DNA of 64,000 nt, taken from positions 4,526,001 to 4,590,000 of the forward strand of contig NC_005125.1 in the NCBI RefSeq assembly GCF_000011385.1, in the 5' to 3' direction. Of the stretch, positions 599 to 18,917 are shown piece by piece. A program made the translations under genes and the position numbers. The DNA is from Gloeobacter violaceus PCC 7421 (lineage in GTDB: Bacteria; Cyanobacteriota; Cyanobacteriia; Gloeobacterales; Gloeobacteraceae). Position 1 is the stretch's first letter; each line of letters begins with the position of its first letter. Under the pieces are notes generated by a model. It ran no database searches, was not told the DNA's origin, and was given only the letters and a program-made list of their open reading frames with translations.

Positions 599-2925
599 GT
601 CGGTCTCAAAAGTTTCTTGAGCCGCAACCATTGCCCGCGCAGCTTCCAGAACTTGCTGCTTTCCATGGCGGCAATTTCTGTCTGCAGTCCTTCGCGTTCG
701 ACCTGGGACTGCTGCTTCAAGTCGGCGTAGAACTCCTGCAGGCTGTGCACGTACTTCCAGGCTCTCTCCAGCTCGCGATAGTTGCTTTGCAACTGCTCTG
801 CCGCCGATTTTTGAGAAGTCACCAACTGCTGCCAAGCCGTCAACAACAAGAAGAATTCGCGAGGCGACCATGTTTGAACAGGCAGGCGGGCAAGGCAGGT
901 GCGCAGAAAAAACTGCTCCCTCACCGCAAGAACCGCCCCCGGCTGCGCTGCGGGTGCCCGGCCGCAGGTGTAGAGCGGGTAGGGATAATGGGCGATCTGC
1001 GCGCCGCCGGCAACGGCTCCTGCCAGCCATTCCAGACCGGCGGCGGGGCCTTCTGCCACCAGCGGCGCGAGCGATTCGACCAGACGGCGCTCGTAGAGGC
1101 CGCAGGGATAGGCAAGCTCCACCGCCCGCAACAGACCGTTTAGAGAAACGGGAATCACATTGACGGCGCGCTCGGCCCTCGCTTGAGCGAGCGCCGGGCT
1201 GAAGACCGCCTGAGCGGAGACGGCCGCGCTCAGCAGCACCTCGAGGGCGCCGGGCAACAGTTGGTCTGAAGCCGCGAGTACCAGCAGATGGGTGCTGCCG
1301 GTGCGCGCGAACCAGTCGCGGCACTGTATCCCGGTTGCTGTCATCACCGGCGAGTGCAAGAAGGTGTACCGGTCCCGGGGCAGGGTGTCAAGCTGGGCTT
1401 GAAAATCTTTGTCCACTGGACAGGCAAGCAGAACGGCCACCGCCTGCAGCTTCCGGGTTTGGATATCCAGGCTCCGGAGGCAGGTGGACAGAGCCGAGCT
1501 GCCCTCCCGGCAGAGGACGAGCGCACTGACGGTGGCATCGCGATCCTGGTTCAGGGCGGCCGGTCGCGCACCAACCTGCGCAATGTGCTGCAATTTTTGC
1601 TGTGTCAGGCTCTTGTTGAGTTCCTGCAATCTGACCGCATCCGGGATATCCTGCACCGGTGCCGTTTCGGCCAGCGCCAGCTTGGCGGCTCGAGCCAGCG
1701 AGCGCGAGTCTTTGGGTGAAAACCAGTGCACTCCCTGCGAGCGCCCCAAAAGCCCCAGGGTTTCTCGAAAACCGCCGGTATCTGAGACGATGAGTTGCAC
1801 GGGCAACTGTCCCATCTCCAAAGCCGTGTTGGGAAAGTTTTCTTGGTGGCTTGCCAGAACGACGAGCGGGTGTTCCAGCGCGTGGATGAAGCGGATGGCC
1901 TGATTACTGAAAAAATCGGAGTGGATAGAAAAACTGACAACACCGGCAAGTTGGTCCTGGATGTACTCATCGCTTGTGCGGTTGACCAGCTCCGGGGAGT
2001 TCAAAAAGACCGATTTGCCGACAAATAAAACGTGCAGCTGCCGCCGGATTGGCTCGTCGAGCATTTTGAGCGCCTCGACGAACGTACAGAGCCCTTTTCG
2101 CTCTTCTAGCCGCCCAAAAAAGACCAGCGGTCTGCGGCCGATCCCCACGGGCTCCCCGGCCGACACGGGCGGGCCGCTCAAATGAACGATCGGAGCGCAG
2201 TAGGGCAGATGAATACCGCGCTCCGTTCGCCAACCGTAACTGGCGACCCGGTCGCGCAGGTAGTACGAAGGAAAGTAGGGCAGGTCCGCATTCTCGAACG
2301 TGTACTGCTGGCAGGCACTTACCTGCCAGAAATAATCCAGGTTCTGATCGTCGAATCGCTCGTTCGCTTCGCAGACCCATTCGTGCCCACCGTGCAGGGT
2401 AACGGCCACTGTGCAGGTCTTGGGCAACAACCGCGCCCGCTTCGCCTGGATGGTGTCAAACCCGAGGGCCATCATCTCCGGGAACTCGACGAATATCGGC
2501 GTGTCCGCAAAGCAATGGGCAATTGCCTGGACAAACAGCAGGCAGCGAAAGCTCTCTTCGCGCACGACATCTGGTTTGAAAGCCGCCAGGAGCGCTTCGT
2601 GCACCGGCTGGAGAACCAGCACCTGCTCGGCCTCCCGGGTGGAGTAGATGCGCCGGACGGCAGGCAGAGTAGACCCGCCGCCAAACGTCTGCGAACCCCC
2701 GCAAAGCAGCAGAACGACATGCCAGCCCTGGGCGGCCAGCTGTTCGCTCAGGGTTTTGTAATACGTTCCGACGCCGCCATTTTTATAGATGCCTTCGTAC
2801 TCGCTGGTGGCGAGTACAGCGATCTTCGCCGGCCTGCTGCCGTTGCCGGCCTCGTCCCAGGACGCTTGGAAGGTCGGGGTCCATTCGCTGCAGCCCACGC
2901 CGGCCGCCCATCCACTCGTGTTCAT
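574..2925 (-). CDS. Bidomain glycosyltransferase (GT4 plus degenerate GT2-like) with SSKFWKLR tail
   Basis: A protein of about 783 residues. Residues 1-450 resemble a GT4 retaining glycosyltransferase: an N-terminal SEYEGIYKNGGVGTYY glycine-rich segment, FFGRLEERKG before the donor domain, and an EX7E motif (ENFPNTALE) near residue 362 followed by SDTGGFRETL. A second domain from about 470 looks like GT2, but where its paralogue at 3887-6319 has DADD this one reads LAASD, so that half may be inactive. The protein ends with the tail MESSKFWKLR...W..LK. A TTG lies just before the chosen ATG at 2925. That ATG overlaps the stop of the methyltransferase upstream as TGATG, indicating coupling. Donor and acceptor sugars are unknown. 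Confidence 0.85.
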   Translation of the reverse strand: MNTSGWAAGVGCSEWTPTFQASWDEAGNGSRPAKIAVLATSEYEGIYKNGGVGTYYKTLSEQLAAQGWHVVLLLCGGSQTFGGGSTLPAVRRIYSTREAEQVLVLQPVHEALLAAFKPDVVREESFRCLLFVQAIAHCFADTPIFVEFPEMMALGFDTIQAKRARLLPKTCTVAVTLHGGHEWVCEANERFDDQNLDYFWQVSACQQYTFENADLPYFPSYYLRDRVASYGWRTERGIHLPYCAPIVHLSGPPVSAGEPVGIGRRPLVFFGRLEERKGLCTFVEALKMLDEPIRRQLHVLFVGKSVFLNSPELVNRTSDEYIQDQLAGVVSFSIHSDFFSNQAIRFIHALEHPLVVLASHQENFPNTALEMGQLPVQLIVSDTGGFRETLGLLGRSQGVHWFSPKDSRSLARAAKLALAETAPVQDIPDAVRLQELNKSLTQQKLQHIAQVGARPAALNQDRDATVSALVLCREGSSALSTCLRSLDIQTRKLQAVAVLLACPVDKDFQAQLDTLPRDRYTFLHSPVMTATGIQCRDWFARTGSTHLLVLAASDQLLPGALEVLLSAAVSAQAVFSPALAQARAERAVNVIPVSLNGLLRAVELAYPCGLYERRLVESLAPLVAEGPAAGLEWLAGAVAGGAQIAHYPYPLYTCGRAPAAQPGAVLAVREQFFLRTCLARLPVQTWSPREFFLLLTAWQQLVTSQKSAAEQLQSNYRELERAWKYVHSLQEFYADLKQQSQVEREGLQTEIAAMESSKFWKLRGQWLRLKKLLRPTWQTPPRR

Positions 2926-3764
2926 CAATGTCTTTCCTGACAGATCGTAGGAGCCGCTTCCTCAGCGTGGAGCACTTGGGGGCGGCCCTCTTGAAAGGGG
3001 TAAAGCCACTGGCGATCTGCCGAGACGAGCGCTTGGCCATCGCCAAGAAGCGGCTGGTGGCTCCGCGGACAGGCCAGAAGTGGATAGAACCAATCCGCTT
3101 CGGTACTTTCGATGGCCTGTCGATAGCAGCTTTGCGGTGTACTTTCTCCCCCCGGCTTCACCACAACTGCGTAGTGGGTGTTGTGGGTATTGGGGCTGTT
3201 ACCCCTAAGCAACTTGCCTTGTGAGAGTGCGCGGATGAACCGCAGCCACAGGGGACGCAGAAAGCCGTGGGGCCGGTTGGCTTCCAGGTACTCCCACAAA
3301 AGCCAGGCAATCGTCTGGCCAAAATGATGGACATGGGCGGTCTCAACCACCTCGAACCCGGCGTACCTCATCAATTCCACCAATCCGCTTTCTGTAAAGC
3401 GGACGTAGTCGTGCGGAGAACTGTGCTGAGGTTGCAAAAAAGGAACGGCAATCACTCCCATCCCGCCCGGGCGCAGTACCCGGTAAAACTCCTGGGCCAC
3501 CACCCATGGAAAGCGGGTGTGCTCCAGCACGGCGATGCTCACAACCGTATCGACACAATCGTCGCGTAGGGGTAAGCCGTGCAGATCGGCGATCACATTC
3601 GGACAGCTGTCAGGAACAATGTCAATGCTGAGGTGCTTCTGGCCCAACTGGACCGCCCGCCAGCCGGAGCCGGCATTGAGCACGATTCCTCGGCAATACT
3701 TCAAGAATGGGGCAATTTCCTCTTCGATCGCAGGCCAGATGATCGGGTAGTCGCTATCGGCCAT
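2925..3764 (-). CDS. SAM-dependent methyltransferase with C-terminal Trm112-like domain
   Basis: A 279-residue class I methyltransferase. The SAM-binding motif reads VLNAGSGWRAV near residue 30, with DLHGLPLRDDCVDTVVSIAVLEH and FYRVLRPGG further on, as in the Methyltransf_11 family. The last 50 residues (YPLLACPRSHQPLL...YPFQEGRPQVL) match the Trm112/UPF0434 small domain, which usually activates or accompanies methyltransferases. The frame is open further upstream, but a near-consensus promoter at 3805-3833 overlaps that extension, so the ATG at 3764 (MADSDYP) is preferred. The gene leads a minus-strand operon with the glycosyltransferases at 574 and 1, suggesting it methylates a glycan or glycan precursor. 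The substrate is not visible. Confidence 0.8.
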   Translation of the reverse strand: MADSDYPIIWPAIEEEIAPFLKYCRGIVLNAGSGWRAVQLGQKHLSIDIVPDSCPNVIADLHGLPLRDDCVDTVVSIAVLEHTRFPWVVAQEFYRVLRPGGMGVIAVPFLQPQHSSPHDYVRFTESGLVELMRYAGFEVVETAHVHHFGQTIAWLLWEYLEANRPHGFLRPLWLRFIRALSQGKLLRGNSPNTHNTHYAVVVKPGGESTPQSCYRQAIESTEADWFYPLLACPRSHQPLLGDGQALVSADRQWLYPFQEGRPQVLHAEEAAPTICQERH

Positions 3765-3804
3765 ACATTTCAGGCTTTTCTGTGTGGTTTGCGGGGGCGT
3801 AAGC

Positions 3805-3833
3805 ATTATAAGACGTTGATCAAAGTTGTGCAA
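3805..3833 (-). promoter_or_regulatory. Sigma70-type promoter of the methyltransferase-glycosyltransferase operon
   Basis: On the minus strand TTGCAC (3828-3833) is followed after exactly 17 bases by TATAAT (3805-3810). Transcription would start near 3798, about 35 bases before the ATG at 3764. A perfect -10 box with the optimal spacer makes this the clearest promoter in the cluster, and it argues against the longer upstream reading frame. Confidence 0.75.
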
Positions 3834-3886
3834 AAGCCAATTCAATCTCGGTATCGCCCGGCGCGCGGGCCGCAGTGAGCCGGGCA

Positions 3887-6319
3887 CTATTCGTCCATGG
3901 CCAGTCCCAGGCGCTTTTTCAATTTGAACCACCGGGAGCGCAGCTTCCAGAACTTGCTGCTCTGCATGGCGGCAATCTCGATCTCCAGTTGTTCGATCTT
4001 GGCCAGGTGAAGGCTGTTGTCGGGCGGCGGCAGCTGGGGTGTCGGTTGGGCAGGGACATCAGCTTGCAGCTGTTGAACTTTTGATTGGAATTGTTCGCTC
4101 TGCAGCTGCGCCTGCTCCTTCGCCTGCTGCAGCTGCAAGCGCAAGCTGGCTGAAAGCTGCAGCAGCTGGCGCACAGCGGAGACCAGCAGATGGATCTGGC
4201 GCTTGGGCCAGGCGGAGGCAGGCACCTGCGCCAGCAATTGCTCCAGCTGAAATTGCGCCTGCCCCGACAAGTACCACTGCGGCGGCGCAACCAGCGGCTG
4301 CTTGCGTTCGCACAGGGCAAAGGGAAAGTAGAGGCCAACTTCTCCGGTGGCTGCGGCTGCAGCGATGAGCTCCCGGCTGCAGGCCTGGATGTCCGTGCCC
4401 TGGGTCCGACCAAGGCGTTTGAGAAACTGGACAGAAGCCAGACATCGGCCGGGGCCGGAGGCCGGCATATTGAGAATACCCGGCAACGAACCGCCGGCAA
4501 AACTGGCACTGGTGGTGTGGCTGCCCTGCGGGACGGGGCTTGCAACTACCGCGGCGTCCACCCGCTTGGCAGCCAGAATCAGGCTCTCGATGGCGAAGGG
4601 CTTGAGAATGTCGTCCGCATCGAGGGCAAGGAAATAACCGTTCTGCTCGGCCTTCAGCAAGGATTTGCAGACCTCCAAAATGGCATCGTCGCAGTCGAGA
4701 TAGACAAATTTACAGTTGGGATACAAGCTTCCAGCCTGCTCCAAAAGTTGCGGCAGCGGTTGGGTAGCCTGGGTAGTGCAAAGCACGACAACCTGCCTGT
4801 TGGAATAGGTCTGGGCCTCGATACCGGCAAGGCAATCCAACAGATAGACACCGGATTGTCGAGGGACGATGGCGATGGTGACGATAGGCTGTCCATCGTC
4901 AATCGAGTGTTCGACTGCCCGCAGCGCCCGGTCGATACACCCGACCTTGCGGTCGAGCAACTCACGATTGATTTGCTTCAGACGCGCTGCGTCGGCGGAT
5001 TCGATGGTTTGCGGCGCATCGGTCAGGGCCTGCACGAGTGTTTGGCACAGTGATTGGGCGTTTTTCGGTTTGAACCAGTAGACAGATGCCGAACGGCCAA
5101 TCAGTTGCAAAGTCTCCCGAAAACCGCCCGTATCGGAGACGACCAATCGGATAGGCAACTGCCCCATCTCCAGGCTGCTATTGGGAAAGTTTTCCTGGGG
5201 GCTCGCCAAGCAGACGAGCGGTTCCGGCAGAGAATAGACGAACTGGATGGCCTCTCGACTGTAGAGATCTGTGTAAATACCAAAGGAGGCCACGCCTGCC
5301 AGTTCCTGCTCTATGTACTCGCGGCTGTCGAGATGGCTGAGTTGGGAGGATTGCAACTGCACAACTTTGCCCACGAACAGAATGTGAAGGGTATCCCTCA
5401 AAACAGAGGGTAAGAGCTTGATCGAATGGACAAAAACAAACAAACCTTTGCGGTCCTCCAGGCGACCGAAAAAGACTAACGGTACCTTCCCTTTGGGAAT
5501 TTCCGGTCCACGGCTTTCCTGCCGAACCGGCAACTGCACAACCGGGACAAAGTTGGGCATGTGCACAGCGCGCTCGACCATCCAGCCGTAACTTTCCAAT
5601 TTCATTTTTAGAAACTGTGAAGGAAAAAATGCGAGGTCAGCCTGCTCGAAGGAGACCTGTTCTCGGCAGCAGACGGACCAGAACCAGTCGATATTTTCTT
5701 CAAGGTGCTTGTCCTGGGCTTCGTACAACCACTCACATCCGCTGTGGAGTGTGATGGCAACGATGCAATTAGGTCCGAGCAAACCCGCCCGCTTGGCTTG
5801 AACCGTGTAGAAACCGAAACCCAGCATCTCCGGAAATTCGACATAAACCACAGCGCCTTGGAAGTGGGCGATAACAGCCTGTAGCAGCAGCAAACAACCA
5901 AAACCCTGCCGATCCGTTTCGTTGTAGCGCAGATCATGCAGGATTTCATGGTGCATAGGTTGCAGGCGGACCACCTGCTCAAGGGCGTCGGCAGAAAAAA
6001 TATGCTTAACAGCAACAAGATCCGATGTGCCGACAAAGTGTTTTTCGGTAAAGCACAGTACTAAAATGACATACCAGCCTTCGGCGGCGAGCATCTCGCT
6101 TAGAACTTTATAGTATGTACCGATGCCGCCATTTTTAAAGATGCCTTCGTACTCACTGGTGACGAGCACTGCCACTTTTGAAGCCTGGGGATCACCCAAT
6201 AATTGGACGATATTGTGCCGAAAGCGGACGGAGAAATTTTTGCCTGGCGGGCGGTGCAAATCGTCCGGTAAGCTATGCACTTTAAGCCCCATACCGTCCA
6301 TTGTATTATGTACAGTCAC
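3887..6319 (-). CDS. Bidomain glycosyltransferase (GT4 plus GT2-like) with SSKFWKLR tail
   Basis: Up to 810 residues, paralogous over its whole length to the proteins at 574-2925 and 6700-9093. The GT4 half has TSEYEGIFKNGGIGTYY, FFGRLEDRKG and the EX7E motif ENFPNSSLE near residue 373. The GT2-like half (about 480-660) keeps LALDADDILKP, a DXD-type metal/nucleotide-sugar motif that both paralogues have lost. A Gln-rich, probably coiled segment (about 715-775) leads to the tail MQSSKFWKLRSRWFKLKKRL. The first in-frame start is GTG at 6319; ATG at 6301 or 6292 are alternatives. The gene is not overlapped by its downstream neighbour, whose own promoter lies between them. It is likely to act in exopolysaccharide assembly. 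Confidence 0.85.
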   Translation of the reverse strand: MTVHNTMDGMGLKVHSLPDDLHRPPGKNFSVRFRHNIVQLLGDPQASKVAVLVTSEYEGIFKNGGIGTYYKVLSEMLAAEGWYVILVLCFTEKHFVGTSDLVAVKHIFSADALEQVVRLQPMHHEILHDLRYNETDRQGFGCLLLLQAVIAHFQGAVVYVEFPEMLGFGFYTVQAKRAGLLGPNCIVAITLHSGCEWLYEAQDKHLEENIDWFWSVCCREQVSFEQADLAFFPSQFLKMKLESYGWMVERAVHMPNFVPVVQLPVRQESRGPEIPKGKVPLVFFGRLEDRKGLFVFVHSIKLLPSVLRDTLHILFVGKVVQLQSSQLSHLDSREYIEQELAGVASFGIYTDLYSREAIQFVYSLPEPLVCLASPQENFPNSSLEMGQLPIRLVVSDTGGFRETLQLIGRSASVYWFKPKNAQSLCQTLVQALTDAPQTIESADAARLKQINRELLDRKVGCIDRALRAVEHSIDDGQPIVTIAIVPRQSGVYLLDCLAGIEAQTYSNRQVVVLCTTQATQPLPQLLEQAGSLYPNCKFVYLDCDDAILEVCKSLLKAEQNGYFLALDADDILKPFAIESLILAAKRVDAAVVASPVPQGSHTTSASFAGGSLPGILNMPASGPGRCLASVQFLKRLGRTQGTDIQACSRELIAAAAATGEVGLYFPFALCERKQPLVAPPQWYLSGQAQFQLEQLLAQVPASAWPKRQIHLLVSAVRQLLQLSASLRLQLQQAKEQAQLQSEQFQSKVQQLQADVPAQPTPQLPPPDNSLHLAKIEQLEIEIAAMQSSKFWKLRSRWFKLKKRLGLAMDE

Positions 6320-6699
6320 TCTTCAACAGGAATTCATCATTGCACAGGTTAGTCCCAGCAGACTGCGGCGTCAAGTTGTTTCGGCGCTCCGGCAAGCAAA
6401 AACGGCTTTACTCCAGGGACGTTGCAAGTTACGATGCACTCTGACTGCGCCCAAGAAAGCGGTGTCCAGCAGGCTCTCAGAGCAGGAGCGGGTACCTATG
6501 TGGGTATGAAGGCGAAGGATATCCAAGGCACTGTGCCATTGTGGCGCTTGGCTGCCGGCTGGCTTCCTGCAGCGATGCAAGAAGATTGCGCAAGCACGGC
6601 AAGTCCAACGTATGCGGCTTACTTGTACATACTGACAACCTATCCGCCGCAGGAGGACTGGATGCCACAGCGGCGGTTGAGGGAAATGGAGATAAATAG
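6320..6699. other. 380-bp divergent intergenic region
   Basis: This gap separates two divergently transcribed paralogous glycosyltransferases and must hold both promoters. I see no convincing coding sequence, no strong inverted repeat and no consensus -35/-10 pair. A weak candidate on the minus strand (TTGAAG and TACAAT, 15-base spacing) lies over the start of the 3887-6319 gene. For the plus-strand gene, GGAG near 6687 is a reasonable ribosome-binding site. Confidence 0.4.
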
Positions 6700-9093
6700 A
6701 TGACAGGGCCGAGGTTGGGTCGATACTGCGATATTTACTTCAAACCGGAGTTTGCTGGGATCTTCGAGAATCGCAACGCAGCGAAAGTAGCTCTGCTGGT
6801 CACCAGGGAATTCGAAGGAAAAGAGCAAGAAGGATTGTCAAGAAATGGTGGTATCGGGACCTATTATCGAACCTTGAGCCGCAAACTAGCCGAGGATGGA
6901 TGGTACATTATCCTGCTAATTTCGGTCTGTGAACATCGATTTAGAGGCGAATCAAAAATACCCGAAATCAAGCACATCTTTTCTGCTAGTGAAGCGGAGG
7001 AAGTACTCGATCTGCAGTCGTCACACAGGTCCATCCTTGGCGATGCCAGGATCGATTCGCAGTTGCTTGACTACGAAAGCTTCCTGCACATGATGTTTAC
7101 GCAGGCCATCGTTCACACATTCGATGAGGCCCATATTTACGTGGAGCATCATGAACTGTTTGGAACGGCTTTTCGGACCATCCAAGCCAAAGAAGCCGGT
7201 CTGCTCGGACGGAATTGTCTGGTCGCAATCACTATGCACGGCTGCCTGGAGTGGGTTTATGAGAGCCACGACAAGTTTGTTCTTCAGTATTTGGATTACT
7301 ACTGGCAGGCATCCCACCTTGAGCAAACCGCCTTTGAAAGTGCGGACCTAGCATTTTTCCCATCGCACGCACTCAAGAAGCGTGTGGAATCCTACGGCTG
7401 GTCGACGGCCCACGCTCGACATCAACCTTATTTTGTGCCCATCGTAGAGCCTGCGATTTCCGAGATAGAATCCGAGCGGCAAACGCCCCCTAGAACTCAG
7501 AAAAGATCCCTCGTCTTTTTTGGTCGTCTTGAAGAGCGAAAAGGATTATGCACTTTCGTCGAAGCGCTCAAACAACTGACGGACTACTGGAAGGAGCGCA
7601 TAGAGGTTTATTTTGTCGGCAGAGTGGTCGCCCTGGAAACCTTCAGACCCCAGAACATCGACAGCCGGCAGTACATCGCACAGGAACTGGCTGACGAGAT
7701 TCACTATACAGTTTACTCTGGTTTCTCCAGTGCGGAGGCTATTGCATTTACTCGCGGACTATCGTCGCCAGTTGTTTGTCTTACCAGCAATCAAGAAAAC
7801 TTCCCCAACACAGCTTTGGAGATGGGACAGTTGCCCATCAGCCTGATTGTTTCGGACACCGGTGGTTTTCGCGAAACCCTGCAACTGCTCGAACGCACAG
7901 AAGGCGTCTATTGGTTTGCGCCGAGGGATGTCACTGGTCTGATGGATGCCATACTACAAGTACTGTGCCAACCCCCGCAGCCCCATAACGTACCGACGCA
8001 CGAAAAGTTGGAGCAAATTAATCGGCGTCTTTTAACCCAGAAACTCACCTACATTCAGCAGGCTTTTCCCCGACAGCCTCTGTCGTCGCCCAGCGTGGGT
8101 TGTCCGCAGGTAACCGTTGTCGTCTGCTGCGCTCAAGCCGACAAGCAATTGTTGAATTGTCTGCACAGCCTCAGTGTCCAGAGTCACATGGATCTAGAAG
8201 TTGTGGTCTTGTGCAACTTCTCTCGCTGCGAAGCGGACAGTTCTATCTTCCAGCAGGCCGGAGCGATTTTCCCACGGATCGGGTTGCTTAGAACCAGCCA
8301 TGCCCTCGAAGTGGATGTCACCTGGAAGCGTCTCAAAGAAATGATCAACGGCAAGTTCGTGGTTGTTTTTGAGGCAAGTAGTGTAGCGATGCCGTTCGCA
8401 ATAGAACAACTGCTTCAAACTCTGCAGACTGCCCAGGCTGAAATGGCTACTTGCTCTGTGTTGGATTCGAGGAATCCCGATCGGGCTGTGAACCTGACCC
8501 AGATCCCGCTTCCTGCACTGCTGAAGACAAGCGGACAGGCGCCTGCCTGTGTGCTGCTTCCTGTCGGTGCGCTGGACGATTACGCACCAAACTTGACTCG
8601 GCCAGACGGTCTACACACCGGTCGCATGCTTGCATCTGCGCTCGCTCACGGACGAAAGATTGCCTACTACCCCTACCCGCTTTGCCAGCGCCAGTCCCGA
8701 ACCGAGCCGGCTCTGACTGCGAAGGAACACCTACGAGAGCAGTATGCCCTGCGCCACTACCTTGCCCGGGGCGATGCCGGCCAGTGGAGCAGGCGTCAGC
8801 TTTATGTACTGCTTTCTGCTGCGCAACAATTGCTCTATCAGGAAATAGCGCCTCCGGCCGCTTATTCGCACGCGGAGCCGGCGCCCGAACCGCCTGCCAC
8901 TCCCTCTGTGGACCCGCCCGCTCCCGCAGCCGCCGAGGGAAGTGCCGCAGCGGCTGCGGCGGCAGACTACTGGCAATCGCAGTGGCGGCAGGCCCAGCTC
9001 CGGATCGCAGCGATGGAGAGCAGCAAATTTTGGAAGTTCAGAAAAGTCTGGTTCAGTCTAAAACAGCGCCTCGGTTTGCCGAACGACGAGTGA
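6700..9093 (+). CDS. Bidomain glycosyltransferase (GT4 plus degenerate GT2-like) with SSKFWKFR tail
   Basis: 797 residues, the third paralogue of this architecture. Its GT4 half carries REFEGKEQEGLSRNGGIGTYY, FFGRLEERKG and ENFPNTALE (EX7E) near residue 365. In the GT2-like half the DADD motif of its paralogue is replaced by FEASS, so this domain is probably non-catalytic. An Ala/Pro-rich linker (about 725-765) precedes the tail MESSKFWKFRKVWFSLKQRL. It is transcribed divergently from the other two copies and opens the plus-strand arm of the cluster, followed by two methyltransferases. Codon use and GC content are somewhat lower than in the flanking housekeeping genes. Sugar specificity is unknown. 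Confidence 0.85.
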   Translation: MTGPRLGRYCDIYFKPEFAGIFENRNAAKVALLVTREFEGKEQEGLSRNGGIGTYYRTLSRKLAEDGWYIILLISVCEHRFRGESKIPEIKHIFSASEAEEVLDLQSSHRSILGDARIDSQLLDYESFLHMMFTQAIVHTFDEAHIYVEHHELFGTAFRTIQAKEAGLLGRNCLVAITMHGCLEWVYESHDKFVLQYLDYYWQASHLEQTAFESADLAFFPSHALKKRVESYGWSTAHARHQPYFVPIVEPAISEIESERQTPPRTQKRSLVFFGRLEERKGLCTFVEALKQLTDYWKERIEVYFVGRVVALETFRPQNIDSRQYIAQELADEIHYTVYSGFSSAEAIAFTRGLSSPVVCLTSNQENFPNTALEMGQLPISLIVSDTGGFRETLQLLERTEGVYWFAPRDVTGLMDAILQVLCQPPQPHNVPTHEKLEQINRRLLTQKLTYIQQAFPRQPLSSPSVGCPQVTVVVCCAQADKQLLNCLHSLSVQSHMDLEVVVLCNFSRCEADSSIFQQAGAIFPRIGLLRTSHALEVDVTWKRLKEMINGKFVVVFEASSVAMPFAIEQLLQTLQTAQAEMATCSVLDSRNPDRAVNLTQIPLPALLKTSGQAPACVLLPVGALDDYAPNLTRPDGLHTGRMLASALAHGRKIAYYPYPLCQRQSRTEPALTAKEHLREQYALRHYLARGDAGQWSRRQLYVLLSAAQQLLYQEIAPPAAYSHAEPAPEPPATPSVDPPAPAAAEGSAAAAAAADYWQSQWRQAQLRIAAMESSKFWKFRKVWFSLKQRLGLPNDE

Positions 9094-9175
9094 CCCAACA
9101 GAGCGTTTCGTCGTGTACCCTTTTTGCGGTAAGCCCGGCTGCAGCGGCGGGTGATATGCTTCCAAGGAGAAAAGG

Positions 9176-10990
9176 TTGCCGATAGGGGAATTTATGAACG
9201 AAGCCCGAAAAACGCTGAAAGAGCGGATAACCCAAGGCATTCAACCGTTTCTGAGAAAGCTTGCGTTGCGCTATCCTCGTTTTGCTTACAGAGCGATCGA
9301 GACGCTGATGAGCAACCTCAAACTCAGCGATTACTCGCCTACCGAAGAATCGAGGATCGCCGACATTTTAATACGGCGCTTGCAAAGCTCAAGCTCTGCG
9401 AGCAGCGAGGGATACAGAATAGCTTCAACGCTGCTGCAAAATTTGACCGTTAAAGATAACTTTTCTGAGATTCTGAGAATCATCAATCTACTTTTAAGTC
9501 GGGCAACAGCGGCCGATCGCCAGGGTGAGGTTCGGCAGGTGGTTGAGATTTTACTGATGTATTTGAAACTGGCCCCGCTCGCCTCAGCAGAAATTCTCGA
9601 GATTGTTGAAGTATGCTTGCGCCACCCGGACTCTGAACATGCTCAAGCGGCAATTATTCAGGTTTGTTTAGACAACTTCAAGCCGACCGACGCATCCACA
9701 GCACAAATTGCAGCGGAAGTCTTTAGCCTGTCCAGGACCAGCCTAGATTATCTAAAAACAGCACAAGTAGTGCCGGAGGACTATCACAGAGCCGTCCAAC
9801 AGTTGCTGGATTATTTGTCGAGTTGCCACCGAGCTCGGTCGACTCCCAAAAGACTCGTTGATGCTCTTCCCGAACACCTGGAGGCGGTTGAAATTTCTGT
9901 ATCAGAGCGCTACAACGCTATTCAAGCAGTTATCAATCAAACGCCAATTGATATGGATTCACTTTACATTCCTTACAACATAATTGACGGCATTCTCCGT
10001 AAATTAAACCGTGAGCCCAAGCGCCTAGCACTCGAAGGCTTGTCTGCTTTTGCCTACGTCGATACAAACTTTTATCTAGACAAGGTGTATACCCGGACCA
10101 AACGCAGCCTGATGGAGGATACATTCTGGCGTTACGGTCCAGAATATATCCGGATCGTCGCCCAAAATGTGTGCACTACATTGCTGAAGTATACCTCTAT
10201 TGTCGGCAAATCTTATTGTGAAATGGGCTGTGGCGTGCACCATCCCTTCGGTGTTTCGGCTGCGATGTACATCAATGGCACGGTTGACAATGTTGCAGTA
10301 GATATTTCTGAAGCAGACATAGGTCGAGCGGCCGAGGCGATCTACGAATTGCTCACCGATGTTCTGGCACGGCCTTCGGACTGGCACTGGTCCGGTATCG
10401 AACGCTCCGCATTTCTGGAGCGGATCTACCACTTTGAACTGGCTGCGTTGAAGCGGGGCGACCTGGCTGCCGGCCTGTCGAAAGTAGCACTCCGGCATGC
10501 CGTTATGGATATCCAACAGCCGACTGTGCCGCAGAAAAGCATTCAACTGATGTCCTCTTGGGCTGTGCTCGAACATTTTCTGGACTTTCCCATGGCTGCA
10601 AGGCAAATGTTCGCGCTCATGGCCGAAGGGGGTATCGCTTTTCACTTGATCGACCTCAGGGACCACCGCGTATACTCCGAGCCGCATCGGTACCACGAAT
10701 GGTCGATGCTGGCGGAAGATGAAACCTGGACGGACGGTCTGGTCAATAGACTGAGGGCACAGGAGTTCAAAGTGTGCTTTGAGCAGGCGGGTTTCGAAAT
10801 TCTTGAGCTTGAATGTGTAAAGCAAGACTTGCCCGACGGCTTCGAGGGCCAAGTGCAGGGCCGCTTCGCACAAATGTCCCTGGAAGAATTGCGGACTGTG
10901 ACGGTTACCTGTGTGCTCAAAAAGCCTGTACTCTCCAAAGACCTGGGCTTACAATGGCAGGAACAGCCAGAAAAAGCATGGATAAATTGA
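9176..10990 (+). CDS. Large protein with helical N-terminus and C-terminal SAM methyltransferase domain
   Basis: 604 residues from a TTG at 9176, chosen because AAGGAG (9164-9169) lies six bases upstream; ATG at 9194 is an alternative. Residues 1-220 are a series of Leu-rich amphipathic helices with no recognised family, resembling an alpha-solenoid. The C-terminal half is methyltransferase-like: YCEMGCGVHHPFG near residue 343, AVDISEADIGRA, then SSWAVLEHFLDFP and a GGIAFHLIDLRDH strand. It lies between a glycosyltransferase and a second methyltransferase, so glycan methylation is a fair inference. The N-terminal part could be a scaffold. It lacks the SSKFWKLR tail of its neighbours. Confidence 0.7.
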   Translation: MPIGEFMNEARKTLKERITQGIQPFLRKLALRYPRFAYRAIETLMSNLKLSDYSPTEESRIADILIRRLQSSSSASSEGYRIASTLLQNLTVKDNFSEILRIINLLLSRATAADRQGEVRQVVEILLMYLKLAPLASAEILEIVEVCLRHPDSEHAQAAIIQVCLDNFKPTDASTAQIAAEVFSLSRTSLDYLKTAQVVPEDYHRAVQQLLDYLSSCHRARSTPKRLVDALPEHLEAVEISVSERYNAIQAVINQTPIDMDSLYIPYNIIDGILRKLNREPKRLALEGLSAFAYVDTNFYLDKVYTRTKRSLMEDTFWRYGPEYIRIVAQNVCTTLLKYTSIVGKSYCEMGCGVHHPFGVSAAMYINGTVDNVAVDISEADIGRAAEAIYELLTDVLARPSDWHWSGIERSAFLERIYHFELAALKRGDLAAGLSKVALRHAVMDIQQPTVPQKSIQLMSSWAVLEHFLDFPMAARQMFALMAEGGIAFHLIDLRDHRVYSEPHRYHEWSMLAEDETWTDGLVNRLRAQEFKVCFEQAGFEILELECVKQDLPDGFEGQVQGRFAQMSLEELRTVTVTCVLKKPVLSKDLGLQWQEQPEKAWIN

Positions 10991-11062
10991 CGGCCTGCTT
11001 TCGCGGGAGCGTCGGCAGGGGTTGTGGGCACTCCACCGTACAGAAGGACCACAAGAACCACT

Positions 11063-12226
11063 ATGTTCGAGCCAGAGATTGCCAAGCAGGACCAAAACAC
11101 CGATCTCCCATTTACTGGAGAGCGGCATATGACCGAGCAACTGGACCAGGAACTCGCTCTTGGTCAGATAGAGCATATGGTGCGTTACGCTTTTGTGGCG
11201 CCATTTGCTTTGGGAAAAAAGGTGCTCGACATCGCCAGCGGCAGTGGCTACGGCTCGCAATATCTAGCACTGCAGGGAGCAACCGAGGTTGTGGCGGTTG
11301 AGATCGACAGCGAGGCAATCAAGTATGCCCAAAAGCACCATAGCCATCCGGCCGTCCGCTTCGTGCAGTCCGATGCGCACGCGGTTCCCCAGTTGGAGAA
11401 CGCCGCCTTCGATGTGATTGTTTCTTTTGAGACAATTGAACATCTGCTGCGGCCAAGAGACTTTCTTCTGGAACTGCGCCGACTGCTCAAGCCCGGTGGC
11501 CAACTGTTTCTTTCCTGCCCAAATGACTACCGTGATTCTCCTTGGATTAGCGAATTTCATCTTCACAAGTTTAAGTTTCAGCAGTTTCGCGATCTCGTGA
11601 TCAACGTTTTTGGAGAAACGGTATTTTTGGGACAACACAATGTTTTAGCCAGTTGCTTGCTCAAGCCGGTTCAATCTAAAAGTTGTTTTTCTCAGTTCGA
11701 CTCCTACCGTTCTCCTTTGCCTGAGAGTGGCCTGGGAATCCAGTATATCGACCGGCTCTCACCCATCGAGGGATCTGAAGGATATTTGGCCGTGGTTGGC
11801 GTCGAGCCGGAGCTAATCGAGAATCATATCAGTGTTTCACAAGATGCTTACGAAGTCGTCGTTAAAAGTCAGCACTATTCGAGCACCGAAAATAGCAGAT
11901 TGAGATCCGATATTCAGGCGACTGGCCACCGGCTTCTCAACCTACAAGAACAGTTCCAGGTCGAAAAAGATACTTGGAAAACACACCTGCAAACAGCCCG
12001 GACGGAGTTGGAAGATTTCCAGGCCGGACTGCGGAAGACCCAGGCCGCATTGGAACAAACCCAGGCTGTCCTGGAGCAAACCCAAGCTAATTTGAAACAA
12101 GTCCAGACTGAACTTCGGCAGACTCGGGCAACTGTAGACAGCATGAAAAGCAGTAAGTTCTGGAAGCTGCGCCGTCGCTGGTTTCAGCTGAAGCAGGCTT
12201 TGGGATTTGCCGACTCCGATGGATGA
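11063..12226 (+). CDS. SAM methyltransferase with coiled coil and SSKFWKLR tail
   Basis: 387 residues. The N-terminal class I methyltransferase domain has VLDIASGSGYGSQYLA near residue 55, AVEIDSEAI and VSFETIEHLLRPRDFL, with LKPGGQLFLSCPN, typical of the Methyltransf_11/UbiG-like group. Residues 270-365 form a Gln-rich heptad coiled coil with internal repeats of the form QTQA.LEQTQA. The protein ends with MKSSKFWKLRRRWFQLKQAL, the tail found on three glycosyltransferases in the same cluster although the catalytic fold is unrelated. ATG at 11063 is preferred over an upstream in-frame GTG because homology begins there. It probably methylates a glycan or its lipid carrier. Confidence 0.8.
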   Translation: MFEPEIAKQDQNTDLPFTGERHMTEQLDQELALGQIEHMVRYAFVAPFALGKKVLDIASGSGYGSQYLALQGATEVVAVEIDSEAIKYAQKHHSHPAVRFVQSDAHAVPQLENAAFDVIVSFETIEHLLRPRDFLLELRRLLKPGGQLFLSCPNDYRDSPWISEFHLHKFKFQQFRDLVINVFGETVFLGQHNVLASCLLKPVQSKSCFSQFDSYRSPLPESGLGIQYIDRLSPIEGSEGYLAVVGVEPELIENHISVSQDAYEVVVKSQHYSSTENSRLRSDIQATGHRLLNLQEQFQVEKDTWKTHLQTARTELEDFQAGLRKTQAALEQTQAVLEQTQANLKQVQTELRQTRATVDSMKSSKFWKLRRRWFQLKQALGFADSDG

Positions 12227-13614: not shown

Positions 13615-15615
13615 ATGACTGCATCGGACCCGCTCAGTAGATTTGTCGAACTCACCGGCGAGACGGCGACGGCGCGCGAGCGCCTGCGCGAACTGTTGGG
13701 CAGCCAGATGGTGCTGCCGGAAGATCCGCCCCCCGAGCAGTTGCGCGCCCTCATCACCCGCGATCTGGCGCTGTTGCGCGCGGCCGATGTGGTGATCACC
13801 GGCAACGAAGTCAACGAGCGCCACGGCACCGGAGTGCTGGTGCGGCGCATCTTCGCCGGCTGCCCGAATATCCTCTCGGTGCGCTCGCGCAACGACTACG
13901 GCGGCGAGCACGCATTCGGGGCGGTCAGCACCCTGATCGCCCACAGAGACGCCCGCCGCCATCTGGTGTTCTACAACGTCATCCAGGCCCTGCGCGGCAG
14001 TACCGCCGGCCGGGTGGTGTGCATTCCCTACTACGCGAGCGACGCGCTCACCGCCATCGCCATCAAAGAGTTGTTCGGCGTGCCGCTTTGCACCTACATC
14101 ATGGACGACCACACCCTCTACGGCGACGGCATCCCCGACGGGTTGATGTCGGAGTTGCTCGCCAAGTCGTCTTTGCGCCTGGCTATCTCCCCCGAGATGC
14201 GCGCCGCCTACGTCCAGCGCTACGGCCTCAAGTTCTGGGTACTGCCGCCGGTGGTGGAGCCGGGCCGGGTGCGCACCCGGCCGGAACTGCCCGAGGCGAG
14301 CGTCCTGGGCTCAAAGACCGGTGTGCTCATCGGCAACATCTGGGGCGAGCACTGGCTGGAGCGGCTGCGGCGGACGGTGGCAGGCTCCGGGCTCAAGCTC
14401 GACTGGTTTGCGAGTCTGCCCCCGTGGCGCAACCTGAGTGCGACCGAACTGGAGCGCGACGGACTGCGCTTGCGCGGCTTCGTGCCGGAACAAGAACTGG
14501 CGCCGCAACTGTCCAACTACCCGTTCGCGGTGCTGCCCTCGGGCACCCTCGATGCGGATGACGACCAGCAGGCGATTGCCCGGTTGAGCTTGCCTACGCG
14601 GGTGCTGTTTTTGATGGCCGCCTCCGGGATTCCGATTCTGGTGCTGGGCAGCCGCCGCACCGCGGCGGCGGGCTTCGTGCTGCGCACCGGTATCGGAGAG
14701 GTGGCCGACTATGAGGCGGCGAGTTTTCGCCGCGCCGCCGAGCGGTTGTGCGACCCCGCCACCCAGCGCGCCGTGCGCGAGCGGGCCGCCGCCGCCGCCC
14801 CCGCCTTTGCCGCCCGGGATGTCGGCGCGTGGCTGTTCGAGTCGCTCGAGCGCGGCGAACCCGCCGACGATCGCTTCGAGCGCGCCCTGCCCAGCGCTCC
14901 CGAGGACCTGACGCCTTATATCGGGCCGGCGGTGCCCGAGGGGGTGCAACTGGAGCTGCGCGCCGCCTTCGAAGCGCTGCGCCGCCTCGGATCGCGCTTT
15001 GTGCCCGATTTTGTCCTGGACGTGGGCGGTTCCTCGGGGATCTGGTCCCACACCATGCAGCCGCTGTTTCCGAAGGCGCGCTTCGTGCTGGTGGAGCCGC
15101 TTTTGGACGAGTACGTCCGGGCCGGGCGCGATCGGCACATCAAAGCCCACCCCGAATTTGAATGGGTCAAAGCCGCCGCGGCCGAGCGGGAGGGCCAGAC
15201 GACCCTGCTGGTGGACGGTGCGCTTTACGGCAGCTCGCTTTTGGATGCAGGGGAGCAGCAGACCCGCCGCACCGTTGCGGTCACGACCCTCGATGCCGTC
15301 GCCCGCGCCAAGCAACTCACCGGCCGCGGCCTGGTGAAGCTTGATGTGCAAGGGGCCGAGCACCTGGTGCTGGAGGGGGCGACCGAACTGCTCCGGCGGG
15401 TGGACGCCCTGGTAATCGAAACTTCGCTCGAAGCGGGGGCCGCGGGCGGCAAGGCCCTGGGCGAGATGCTGCAAATCGTCGCGCAGTTGGGGTTCGCCTA
15501 CGCCGACGACGCTGGGGAGTGGCGCGCGCCCGCGGACGGCCGGTTGCTGCAAAAAGATATTCTCTTCCTCAGAAAAGCACCGCCCGCCCGTCCATCCACC
15601 GATGGGAGGAACTGA
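13615..15615 (+). CDS. Glycosyltransferase-like domain fused to FkbM methyltransferase
   Basis: 666 residues. The N-terminal 430 residues resemble a GT-B glycosyltransferase: NERHGTGVLVRRIF, a GVPLCTYIMDDHTLYGDG loop, and FLMAASGIPILVLG. From about residue 460 the sequence is FkbM-type: FVLDVGGSSGIWSHTM, FVLVEPLLDEY, TTLDAV, GLVKLDVQGAEHLVLEGA, DALVIETS. FkbM enzymes O-methylate sugars or natural products (family knowledge), so this protein may add and cap a sugar in one polypeptide. It is followed three bases later by the unknown protein at 15619, suggesting coupling. A fusion caused by sequencing error is unlikely because the frame is continuous and compositionally uniform. Confidence 0.8.
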   Translation: MTASDPLSRFVELTGETATARERLRELLGSQMVLPEDPPPEQLRALITRDLALLRAADVVITGNEVNERHGTGVLVRRIFAGCPNILSVRSRNDYGGEHAFGAVSTLIAHRDARRHLVFYNVIQALRGSTAGRVVCIPYYASDALTAIAIKELFGVPLCTYIMDDHTLYGDGIPDGLMSELLAKSSLRLAISPEMRAAYVQRYGLKFWVLPPVVEPGRVRTRPELPEASVLGSKTGVLIGNIWGEHWLERLRRTVAGSGLKLDWFASLPPWRNLSATELERDGLRLRGFVPEQELAPQLSNYPFAVLPSGTLDADDDQQAIARLSLPTRVLFLMAASGIPILVLGSRRTAAAGFVLRTGIGEVADYEAASFRRAAERLCDPATQRAVRERAAAAAPAFAARDVGAWLFESLERGEPADDRFERALPSAPEDLTPYIGPAVPEGVQLELRAAFEALRRLGSRFVPDFVLDVGGSSGIWSHTMQPLFPKARFVLVEPLLDEYVRAGRDRHIKAHPEFEWVKAAAAEREGQTTLLVDGALYGSSLLDAGEQQTRRTVAVTTLDAVARAKQLTGRGLVKLDVQGAEHLVLEGATELLRRVDALVIETSLEAGAAGGKALGEMLQIVAQLGFAYADDAGEWRAPADGRLLQKDILFLRKAPPARPSTDGRN

Positions 15616-16640: not shown

Positions 16641-18917
16641 GTGGGACTGCGCGAGTACTTGCGGATTTTGAACCGCCACTGGCCCTACGCCGCGGGGACG
16701 GCCCTGGCGGTGGTGACGGTTGTTACCGTCTGGACTTTTGCGCTGCCACCGGTCTGGGAAGCCCAGGGCCGTTTATTGTTCAAACAGAAAGACACGGCGA
16801 TTGACAACCCTACGGCCGTGGGCTTGCGCGGTGCTCTTGGACAGATGGGCTCGGTCGCCTACGGCAATCCCCTCGACACCCAGGCGGAGATCCTCCAATC
16901 GCGGCCGGTGGCAGCCGGGGTGATCCGCGATCTGCAACTGGGCGATCCGCGTCGGCCGGGGGAGTTGCTCGCCACCACCGACTTTTTGCGCGCCCTCAAA
17001 GTGGAGGCATTGCGCCGCACCGACTTATTGGTCATCAAATACCGCGACCGCGACCCGGCGGTGGCGACAAGGGTGGTCAACACCCTCGCCCGCCATTACA
17101 TCGACCTCAACATGCAGCAAAATCGGGCGGAGGCCGCCTCGACCCGCGGCTTCGTCGAAGCGCAGCTGCCGGCGATGGAGCAGCGCCTGCGCGCCTCGGA
17201 GCGCAAACTGCGTTCTTTCAAAGAACAGTACGGCAGCGTCGCCCTCGCCGAGGAGCAGCAGGCGGCGGTGCGTCTTTTGTCCGAATTTAGAAGCCAGCAG
17301 GCCCAGGCCGATGTCGCCCTTTCGGAGGCCGGGGCGCGGGTGCGGGCGATCGACGCCCGTATGGGCGGTCTTTCTGAACCAGAGGCGCTCGTGGCCGGCG
17401 CCCTGAGCGGCAGCGACGGGATGCGCGATTTGCGCAAGACCTTGCTTGAGATCGAATCGAAGCTGGCGGTGGCCCGCGCCCAGTACCAGGACAGCTATCC
17501 CGAAGTCGAGCAACTTATCAAGCGGCGGGGTGCCTTGCGGGCGCTGCTGGCGAGCGAGGCGGACCGGCTTTTGGGCCGCCGGGGACTGCCCGATTCGCTG
17601 CTCGATGCGAATCTGGGGACCGGGAGGACCGAGCCAGCGGCGGTCCCCGACGATCTGCCGCGCCTCGACGCGGTGCGCCAGCAACTGCTCAAAGATCTGA
17701 TCGCCGCCCGGGTCGAAGAACTGGCCGCCCGCACCCGCACCGAGGCGCTCGCCCGGGTGAGTGCCGAGTACGACGCGCGGGTGGCCGCTTTGCCCCGGCT
17801 GGAGGAGTCCCAGCGCCGGCTGGCCCGGCAGGTGGAGGCCGACCAGGAAGCCTACCGGCTACTTCAGAAAAAATTCTACGAATACCGGATTCTCGAAGCG
17901 CAGAACATCGGCAACGCCACGCTCATCGAACCGGCCGAGGTGCCGGAGATACCAGCCTGGCCGAAGCCGCTGCTCAATCTGGCTGCGGGCGGAGTGCTCG
18001 CCCTGATTCTCGCAGCGCTAGCCGCCTACACGCGCGAATTTTTTGACGACTCGCTGCGCAGCGTCGAGGAAGCGCGGGGGCTTCTGGGCACATCGCTTCT
18101 GGGAAGCGTGCCGCGCTGGAACGCCCAGAGCGTCCGGGGTCCGCTCATGGCGCTTCGCGACCCGCTCTCGCCGGTGAGCGAGGCCTACCGTTCGATCCGC
18201 ACCCACCTCAAATTTTTAAGTAGCGAGCGGGGTCTGCGCGCCTTCGTGCTCACCAGCGCCAGCCCCCAGGAGGGAAAATCGACCACCGCCGCCAATCTTG
18301 CGGCGGTGAGCGCCCAGGCAGGGGCGCGGGTGTTGCTGGTGGACGGCGACCTGCGCAAACCCCGCCAGCACGCCCTCTGGGATCTCGACAACCGCCAGGG
18401 GCTCTCGACGCTGCTGGTGGGTGAAGCCGACTGGCAAACGGCAGTCCGCCCCACCCCCCAACCCGGTCTCGTGGTGCTCACCGCCGGACCGCCACCGCCC
18501 AACCCGGTAGTCCTGCTCGAATCGAGGCGATTGGGCGAACTGCTTGGCCTGTGGAGCGAGCAGTTCGACCTCGTCATCTTCGACGCCCCGCCGCTCACCG
18601 CCGCCTCCGATGCACTGGTACTGGGGGCGCTCGGTGGCGGACTGGTGCTGGTGGTGCGTCCCGGCGTCACCAACAAGCGCGTGCTCGCCAAGGTGCGCGA
18701 CAGCCTCAAGCGGCCCGGCATCGAGCTGTTGGGTCATATCGTCAATGGCACAATCGCCGCCAACGAAGGCCACGACGAGTACTACTACTACAACCGCTAC
18801 GGGGCCGACCCCGTCCCAGGGCAGCCCGAAGCTGCGGCCCACACCAACGGCAACGGCACCGCCCGCCGTTGGTTCCAATCCCTCTCCACCCGGCGCTCCA
18901 GCAAGCCCCGCTCCTGA
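16641..18917 (+). CDS. Polysaccharide chain-length determinant / BY-kinase (Wzc-like)
   Basis: 758 residues. A Wzz domain opens the protein, with a first membrane helix near residues 15-35 and a second near 435-455. Long periplasmic coiled coils lie between them. The cytoplasmic kinase has a Walker A SASPQEGKST near 540, Walker A' VLLVDGDLRKP and Walker B LVIFDAPPL. A Tyr cluster EYYYYNRY near 713 is the expected autophosphorylation site. Such proteins control polymerisation and export of capsule or exopolysaccharide by cycling phosphorylation (family knowledge). The start is GTG. No wza, wzb, wzx or wzy is visible in the window, so partners lie elsewhere. It closely precedes a glycosyltransferase (two-base gap). 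Confidence 0.92.
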   Translation: MGLREYLRILNRHWPYAAGTALAVVTVVTVWTFALPPVWEAQGRLLFKQKDTAIDNPTAVGLRGALGQMGSVAYGNPLDTQAEILQSRPVAAGVIRDLQLGDPRRPGELLATTDFLRALKVEALRRTDLLVIKYRDRDPAVATRVVNTLARHYIDLNMQQNRAEAASTRGFVEAQLPAMEQRLRASERKLRSFKEQYGSVALAEEQQAAVRLLSEFRSQQAQADVALSEAGARVRAIDARMGGLSEPEALVAGALSGSDGMRDLRKTLLEIESKLAVARAQYQDSYPEVEQLIKRRGALRALLASEADRLLGRRGLPDSLLDANLGTGRTEPAAVPDDLPRLDAVRQQLLKDLIAARVEELAARTRTEALARVSAEYDARVAALPRLEESQRRLARQVEADQEAYRLLQKKFYEYRILEAQNIGNATLIEPAEVPEIPAWPKPLLNLAAGGVLALILAALAAYTREFFDDSLRSVEEARGLLGTSLLGSVPRWNAQSVRGPLMALRDPLSPVSEAYRSIRTHLKFLSSERGLRAFVLTSASPQEGKSTTAANLAAVSAQAGARVLLVDGDLRKPRQHALWDLDNRQGLSTLLVGEADWQTAVRPTPQPGLVVLTAGPPPPNPVVLLESRRLGELLGLWSEQFDLVIFDAPPLTAASDALVLGALGGGLVLVVRPGVTNKRVLAKVRDSLKRPGIELLGHIVNGTIAANEGHDEYYYYNRYGADPVPGQPEAAAHTNGNGTARRWFQSLSTRRSSKPRS

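Follow-up and report, generated by a model that had tools for sequence, protein, structure and literature searches.

Foot peptides of the Gloeobacter cluster

The window analyzed here is a stretch of 64,000 nucleotides from Gloeobacter violaceus PCC 7421 (contig NC_005125.1, positions 4,526,001 to 4,590,000). It contains a cluster in which three glycosyltransferase genes and one methyltransferase gene, all of them long open reading frames, each close in frame with nearly the same short peptide, which we call the foot (Table 1). A sequence-only reading of this DNA had pointed out these four near-identical tails, and its coordinates were off by a few bases only. We searched the six-frame translation of the window with a profile trained on the copies of other genomes alone. 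The search returned only the four feet (E-values of 3.6e-13, 1.7e-12, 6.3e-12 and 7.5e-12), and the following match had an E-value of 4.8. The codons of the foot vary from copy to copy; therefore, it is the peptide that has been conserved, and not a recent copy of the DNA. The whole genome (4,659,019 bp in a single contig) holds five copies, which span 13.3 kb from 4524922 to 4538202. The fifth copy (G000:C1:4524922-4524993) lies approximately 1 kb before the window start on another GT4-type protein (L069:16372-18825), and the profile search found no sixth copy in the genome.

The three foot-bearing glycosyltransferases of the window belong to a single GT4-plus-GT2-like family, as paralogs with 38-39% identity, so that the foot stands on two unrelated heads there. 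The claim that the tail occurs on enzymes of unrelated folds thus holds in the window for two head types, and not for four. Other enzymes of the same cluster carry no foot, including two methyltransferases (Table 1) and the subsequent glycosyltransferase and FkbM-type genes. One of the footless genes (13615-15615) combines a C-terminal FkbM methyltransferase half with an N-terminal half that has no assignment. In addition, the GT2-like half of the paralogs is graded: it is clear in the third copy, gives a weak signal in the second and escapes recognition in the first, which suggests a step-wise decay or divergence of this module.

Table 1. Foot peptides, their carriers and other genes of the cluster (positions in the window)
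Feature	Positions	Strand	20-residue foot	Description
Foot peptide EIAAMESSKFWKLRGQWLRLKKLL	607..678	-	607-666 (-)	Near the C-terminus of glycosyltransferase 1; profile match
Foot peptide EIAAMQSSKFWKLRSRWFKLKKRL	3908..3979	-	3908-3967 (-)	On glycosyltransferase 2; profile match
Foot peptide RIAAMESSKFWKFRKVWFSLKQRL	9001..9072	+	9013-9072 (+)	On glycosyltransferase 3; profile match and low-confidence AlphaFold2 model
Foot peptide TVDSMKSSKFWKLRRRWFQLKQAL	12131..12202	+	12143-12202 (+)	On the window methyltransferase; profile match and AlphaFold2 model
Glycosyltransferase 1, 784 aa	574..2928	-		GT4-type N-half, GT2-like half unseen by Pfam, helical linker, foot
Glycosyltransferase 2, 810 aa	3887..6319	-		GT4 half; GT2 half with weak signal; linker that includes a proline-rich segment; foot
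Glycosyltransferase 3, 797 aa	6700..9093	+		GT4 half; GT2 half clearly recognised (Pfam 6e-42); linker rich in Ala and Pro; foot
Class I methyltransferase, 400 aa	11024..12226	+		Head, helical stalk, Ser-Ser break, foot; Pfam Methyltransf_11 4e-22
Methyltransferase without foot	2925..3932	-		Between two foot-bearing genes
Methyltransferase (Methyltransf_23) without foot	9176..10990	+		Same cluster
Wzc-like polysaccharide co-polymerase	16641..18917	+		Wzz, GNVR, ParA-type ATPase; cluster context

Distribution and anatomy of the foot

We next consider the foot outside this genome. Among 96 sampled genomes of Cyanobacteriia, 46 contained a foot match at E < 1e-3, which bears out the expectation that the peptide is widespread in cyanobacteria. 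Relaxing the threshold to E 0.1 raised this number to 50, and the four weakest of these resemble chance. In a wider profile search of contigs, 78 of 80 loci among the matches listed were cyanobacterial, with Nostoc, Moorena, Microcystis, Trichodesmium, Calothrix and Pseudanabaena among them. The two others, from Spirochaetes (L184) and Rickettsiaceae (L204), were rejected as chance DNA matches in frames of approximately 20 codons. A genome of the same genus as our strain (G168) lacks both the glycosyltransferases of the cluster and the tails.

In Cyanobacteriia, the heads that carry the foot comprise GT-B and GT-A glycosyltransferases, Rossmann methyltransferases (Methyltransf_11/23/24, FkbM and TylF) and 3'-phosphoadenosine-5'-phosphosulfate (PAPS)-type sulfotransferases; the Capsule_synth and heptosyltransferase models each gave a single weak match among the carriers. 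The foot is one module that recurs on catalytic domains with four or more unrelated folds, and is not restricted to one homologous family. Its genes are also grouped in glycan loci. Of the 67 feet in multi-copy genomes, 46 had a companion within one stretch of up to 20 kb. Both results come from a profile search of the kind that the sequence-only reading had proposed.

Several unusual feet were observed. One protein of 184 residues (L078:8623-9174, minus strand) consists of a helical stalk and foot alone, and a sulfotransferase gene with a shortened foot lies less than 1 kb away. Another cyanobacterial protein (L226:4334-7567, minus strand) has two standard feet, one internal and the other C-terminal. 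We also found variant feet with a tryptophan shortly upstream of the core serine (WMETSKFWK), followed by LKVKW or ARLKFI (L136, L141, L198 and L206; L153, L227 and L241), the genes for which often adjoin a standard foot gene.

To describe the anatomy of the foot, we counted residues over 88 profile-selected copies, a selection that inflates the conservation figures somewhat. The consensus was M-x-[ST]-S-K-F-W-[KQ]-L-R-x-x-W-F-x-L-K. F10 and W11 were present in all 88 copies, R14 and W17 in 87, K9 in 84 and K21 in 82. Arginine replaced K9 in two copies and lysine replaced R14 in none, and positions 19 and 22 were freely K or R. The hydrophobic positions 10, 11, 13, 17, 18, 20 and 24 were near-invariant, with 11 and 18 lying beside the row formed by 10, 13, 17, 20 and 24. 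The mean net charge was +5.4. The mean helical moment at 100 degrees was 0.376, a value attained by approximately 27% of same-residue shuffles, and therefore the amphipathicity is moderate. The foot was C-terminal in 72 of the 88 copies, with a median of 6 residues beyond the 24-residue block, and internal in 16. The description of the foot as a C-terminal tail is thus right for most copies, and the internal ones had not been foreseen. A PEP-CTERM-like sorting signal was also considered and rejected, because the foot lacks an extended hydrophobic segment, its carriers are of cytoplasmic type and internal copies occur.

The 60 residues upstream of the foot were poor in proline and glycine, with a mean Pro+Gly count of 2.35 vs 6.30 in control windows, although some carriers, such as glycosyltransferase 3 of the window, have a Pro/Ala-rich linker. 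The AlphaFold2 model of the window methyltransferase, a monomer built on an 11-sequence alignment, shows a head and a single predicted helix of 114 residues (262-375). This helix is interrupted at Ser376-Ser377, and a second helix of 15 residues (378-392) follows, which is the foot and has a predicted local distance difference test (pLDDT) score of approximately 80-90. In the model of glycosyltransferase 3, helices at 747-772 and 775-791 are separated by a break at the equivalent place, in a region of low confidence. The models predict a geometry of stalk, hinge and foot. They agree with the earlier description of the tail as basic, aromatic and helical, and both place the foot outside the catalytic fold, so that we rejected the idea that it is a piece of that fold, with the caveat that the model of the glycosyltransferase is of low quality in this region.

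Related designs and export context

One of the closest known designs is that of WbdD, the methyltransferase-kinase chain terminator of Escherichia coli O9a and Klebsiella pneumoniae O3, which likewise has a methyltransferase head, a long helical stalk and a C-terminal foot region (PMC11231755; PMC5082667). Beyond its coiled coil, WbdD has a membrane-associated amphipathic helix and a polymerase recruitment site (PMC11231755). WbdD (chains 4azs/4ax8) was one of many class I methyltransferases that the window methyltransferase matched, with an E-value of 4e-9 to its methyltransferase domain. As the match to the solved chains covers this domain only, the likeness does not extend to a comparison of foot with foot. 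The extended coiled-coil stalk of WbdD has its counterpart in the single helix predicted for the window methyltransferase by the monomer model. However, WbdD has a kinase domain, whereas no kinase was recognised by Pfam in the window methyltransferase, the predicted head of which runs directly into the stalk. Moreover, WbdD is a single terminator, whereas the cyanobacterial foot is common to many enzyme types.

The internal feet extend this comparison. They lie mostly between a head plus stalk and downstream glycosyltransferase modules, with a methyltransferase (L081 and L093) or a sulfotransferase (L085 and L105) followed by stalk, foot and then GT2 or GT4. The same order of head, stalk and glycosyltransferase is found in the terminator-coiled coil-polymerase fusions ORF6 of K. 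pneumoniae O7 and WbbB of O12. ORF6 has, in this order, a methyltransferase, a coiled coil and two GT2 modules, and the authors of that work mention cyanobacterial orthologs with and without C-terminal GT modules (PMC11231755). However, a kinase and a carbohydrate-binding domain are present in the O7 terminator as well, and no common foot peptide is described in that work for the O7 and O12 proteins. Among the proteins that we scanned, no Pfam or NCBIfam model covered the foot residues; we found no solved structure containing the foot, and no paper naming the peptide in a search mostly outside subscription journals. Thus, the stalk-and-foot design is already known from a few O-antigen terminators, and the sharing of one foot peptide by many types of enzyme appears to be undescribed, as the sequence-only reading had supposed.

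A probable counterpart of the foot occurs in Pseudomonadota. The search for it started from a predefined pattern, and the resulting matches are the evidence. In glycan enzymes of this phylum, S-x-S-W-R-[LI]-T-x-P-L-R follows a helical stalk, at a terminal or internal position, on methyltransferases, GT2 enzymes, a possible sulfotransferase and methyltransferase-stalk-GT4 fusions. The two elements thus share their place, their head types and an S-x-x-W-[KR]-[LI] core; after the tryptophan core, the Pseudomonadota element continues with T-x-P-L-R, whereas the cyanobacterial foot continues with R-x-x-W-F-x-L-K. Alignment of the two profiles gave an hhalign P of 7.7e-5, in register at this core, and none of 200 column-permuted controls scored as high. 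Both forms also occur together at two cyanobacterial loci (L133 and L226). Judging from this profile alignment, the cyanobacterial foot and the Pseudomonadota element are likely to share a common descent. We found no family model or paper for the latter, which the sequence-only reading had not foreseen. One Pseudomonadota protein (L272 and L285) ends in tandem SWR-type feet, SRSWTLARPLR and then SISWELTAPLR.

We also examined the export genes around the feet, in fetched stretches of up to 20 kb each from 43 foot-bearing genomes, with the Wzm and Wzt families recognised by sequence and recurrence. Wzm-like and/or Wzt-like ATP-binding cassette (ABC) exporter genes, as in a WbdD-type locus, were found in the stretches of 22 of these genomes, and the distance between Wzt and a foot gene was often 10 to 62 bp. 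Given a background of approximately two Wzm matches per genome, chance co-location is estimated to occur in approximately 1% of genomes.

A putative membrane-proximal foot and its alternatives

We propose that the foot is a portable, membrane-proximal element that gathers glycan enzymes, akin to the base of WbdD. The common module, its range of heads and its clustering are observed and the geometry is predicted, whereas anchoring and gathering are inferred; we assign this reading a rough probability of 0.5. Each enzyme would consist of a catalytic head, a stalk that is helical for the most part, a hinge of Ser-Ser or Thr-Ser, and the short aromatic, basic helix. The foot would hold its enzyme on the cytoplasmic side of the inner membrane, where glycans on their lipid carriers are extended and handed over to an exporter. 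A common foot would then gather unrelated enzymes on one nascent glycan, and the stalk may set the reach of each head. The order of head, stalk, foot and glycosyltransferase in the fusions is what is expected of a foot at the membrane-proximal end. The variety of heads, the clustering of the feet, the modelled break, the near-invariant hydrophobic positions with their basic charge, and the exporter genes near many feet also speak for this reading.

Several observations weigh against this proposal. In three fusions (L096, L148 and L235), a methyltransferase lies downstream of the foot. The helical moment of the foot is unexceptional for its composition. Some carriers have Pro/Ala-rich linkers in place of a continuous stalk, and therefore the role of the stalk as a ruler cannot be general. 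In addition, the Gloeobacter genome contains no Wzt_C, and its sole Wzm match lies approximately 1 Mb from the cluster; therefore, the window cluster, which has the Wzc-like co-polymerase in place of an ABC exporter, is not an ABC-export cluster. We thus rejected a universal ABC-export role, and this exception implies that the foot is not bound to one export route. The sequence-only reading had taken the tail for a common docking or membrane-targeting signal. This interpretation is supported in part: one common module outside the catalytic fold was indeed found, and membrane targeting or docking into a single complex is its putative role, the helical moment being moderate.

One alternative is that the foot, instead of binding lipid, docks onto a single conserved protein that would act as a receptor in the machinery for glycan assembly or export. 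K9, R14, F10 and W11 are kept more strictly than a lipid anchor would require, whereas K and R are interchangeable at positions 19 and 22; although the profile-selected set inflates this conservation somewhat, the strict K9 and R14 point to a specific contact over a generic basic anchor. A peptide that works at internal and C-terminal positions alike also fits docking. However, we found no conserved receptor-like family among the recurrent neighbours in the fetched stretches, where exporters, sugar-nucleotide enzymes and ordinary glycosyltransferases mainly recurred, besides a few rarer families without identification, and ABC genes were absent near half of the clusters. Furthermore, feet of the same genome were no more alike than those of different genomes (similarity of 0.350 vs 0.332, permutation p of 0.17). 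This gives no support to feet being tuned to a local partner in each genome, and any receptor site must therefore be equally invariant. We regard such docking as possible but rather doubtful. The same comparison favours a universal partner, which may be the membrane itself or a site on a protein that does not vary.

Alternatively, the feet may bind one another. After a one-residue skip, their helix would prolong the stalk with a heptad a/d pattern, since F10, L13, W17, L20 and L24 have the spacing 10-13-17-20-24 and W11 and F18 widen this face, so that different enzymes would join in a mixed bundle. The grouping of feet by locus and the protein made of stalk and foot alone would suit this arrangement. 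However, AlphaFold2 breaks the helix between stalk and foot, albeit in monomer models, there are genomes with a single foot gene in which homo-assembly alone is possible, and the feet show no genome-specific matching. We therefore consider a mixed bundle improbable. It is far less probable still that the similarity is a passive relic of recent gene conversion, in-cluster domain shuffling or chance, with no function of its own. The carrier genes lie close together and three of the four in the window are paralogous, as such a relic would have it; yet the foot has been kept across dozens of genera while the neighbouring linker varies freely, and chance or copying at the DNA level is ruled out by the codon differences and the lack of excess similarity within genomes.

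Little is understood of how cytoplasmic glycosyltransferases and modifying enzymes meet on a lipid-linked glycan as it grows. Tentatively, we suggest that feet with S-x-x-W-[KR]-[LI] could form a bacterial address code with at least two phylum dialects (SKFWKLRxxWFxLK in cyanobacteria and SWRxTxPLR in Pseudomonadota), by which a common receptor or membrane site would route unrelated folds into one complex. If this is true, then the sequence of the foot would predict which enzymes work together. Cyanobacterial polysaccharide loci are hard to annotate. With a common foot, enzymes of one assembly line could be recognised from their sequences, orphan methyltransferases and sulfotransferases could be placed in glycan loci, and the idea of a membrane-bound assembly complex would become testable by the transfer or removal of 25 residues. 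It would also widen the stalk-and-foot design of WbdD from a few O-antigen terminators to a phylum-wide arrangement.

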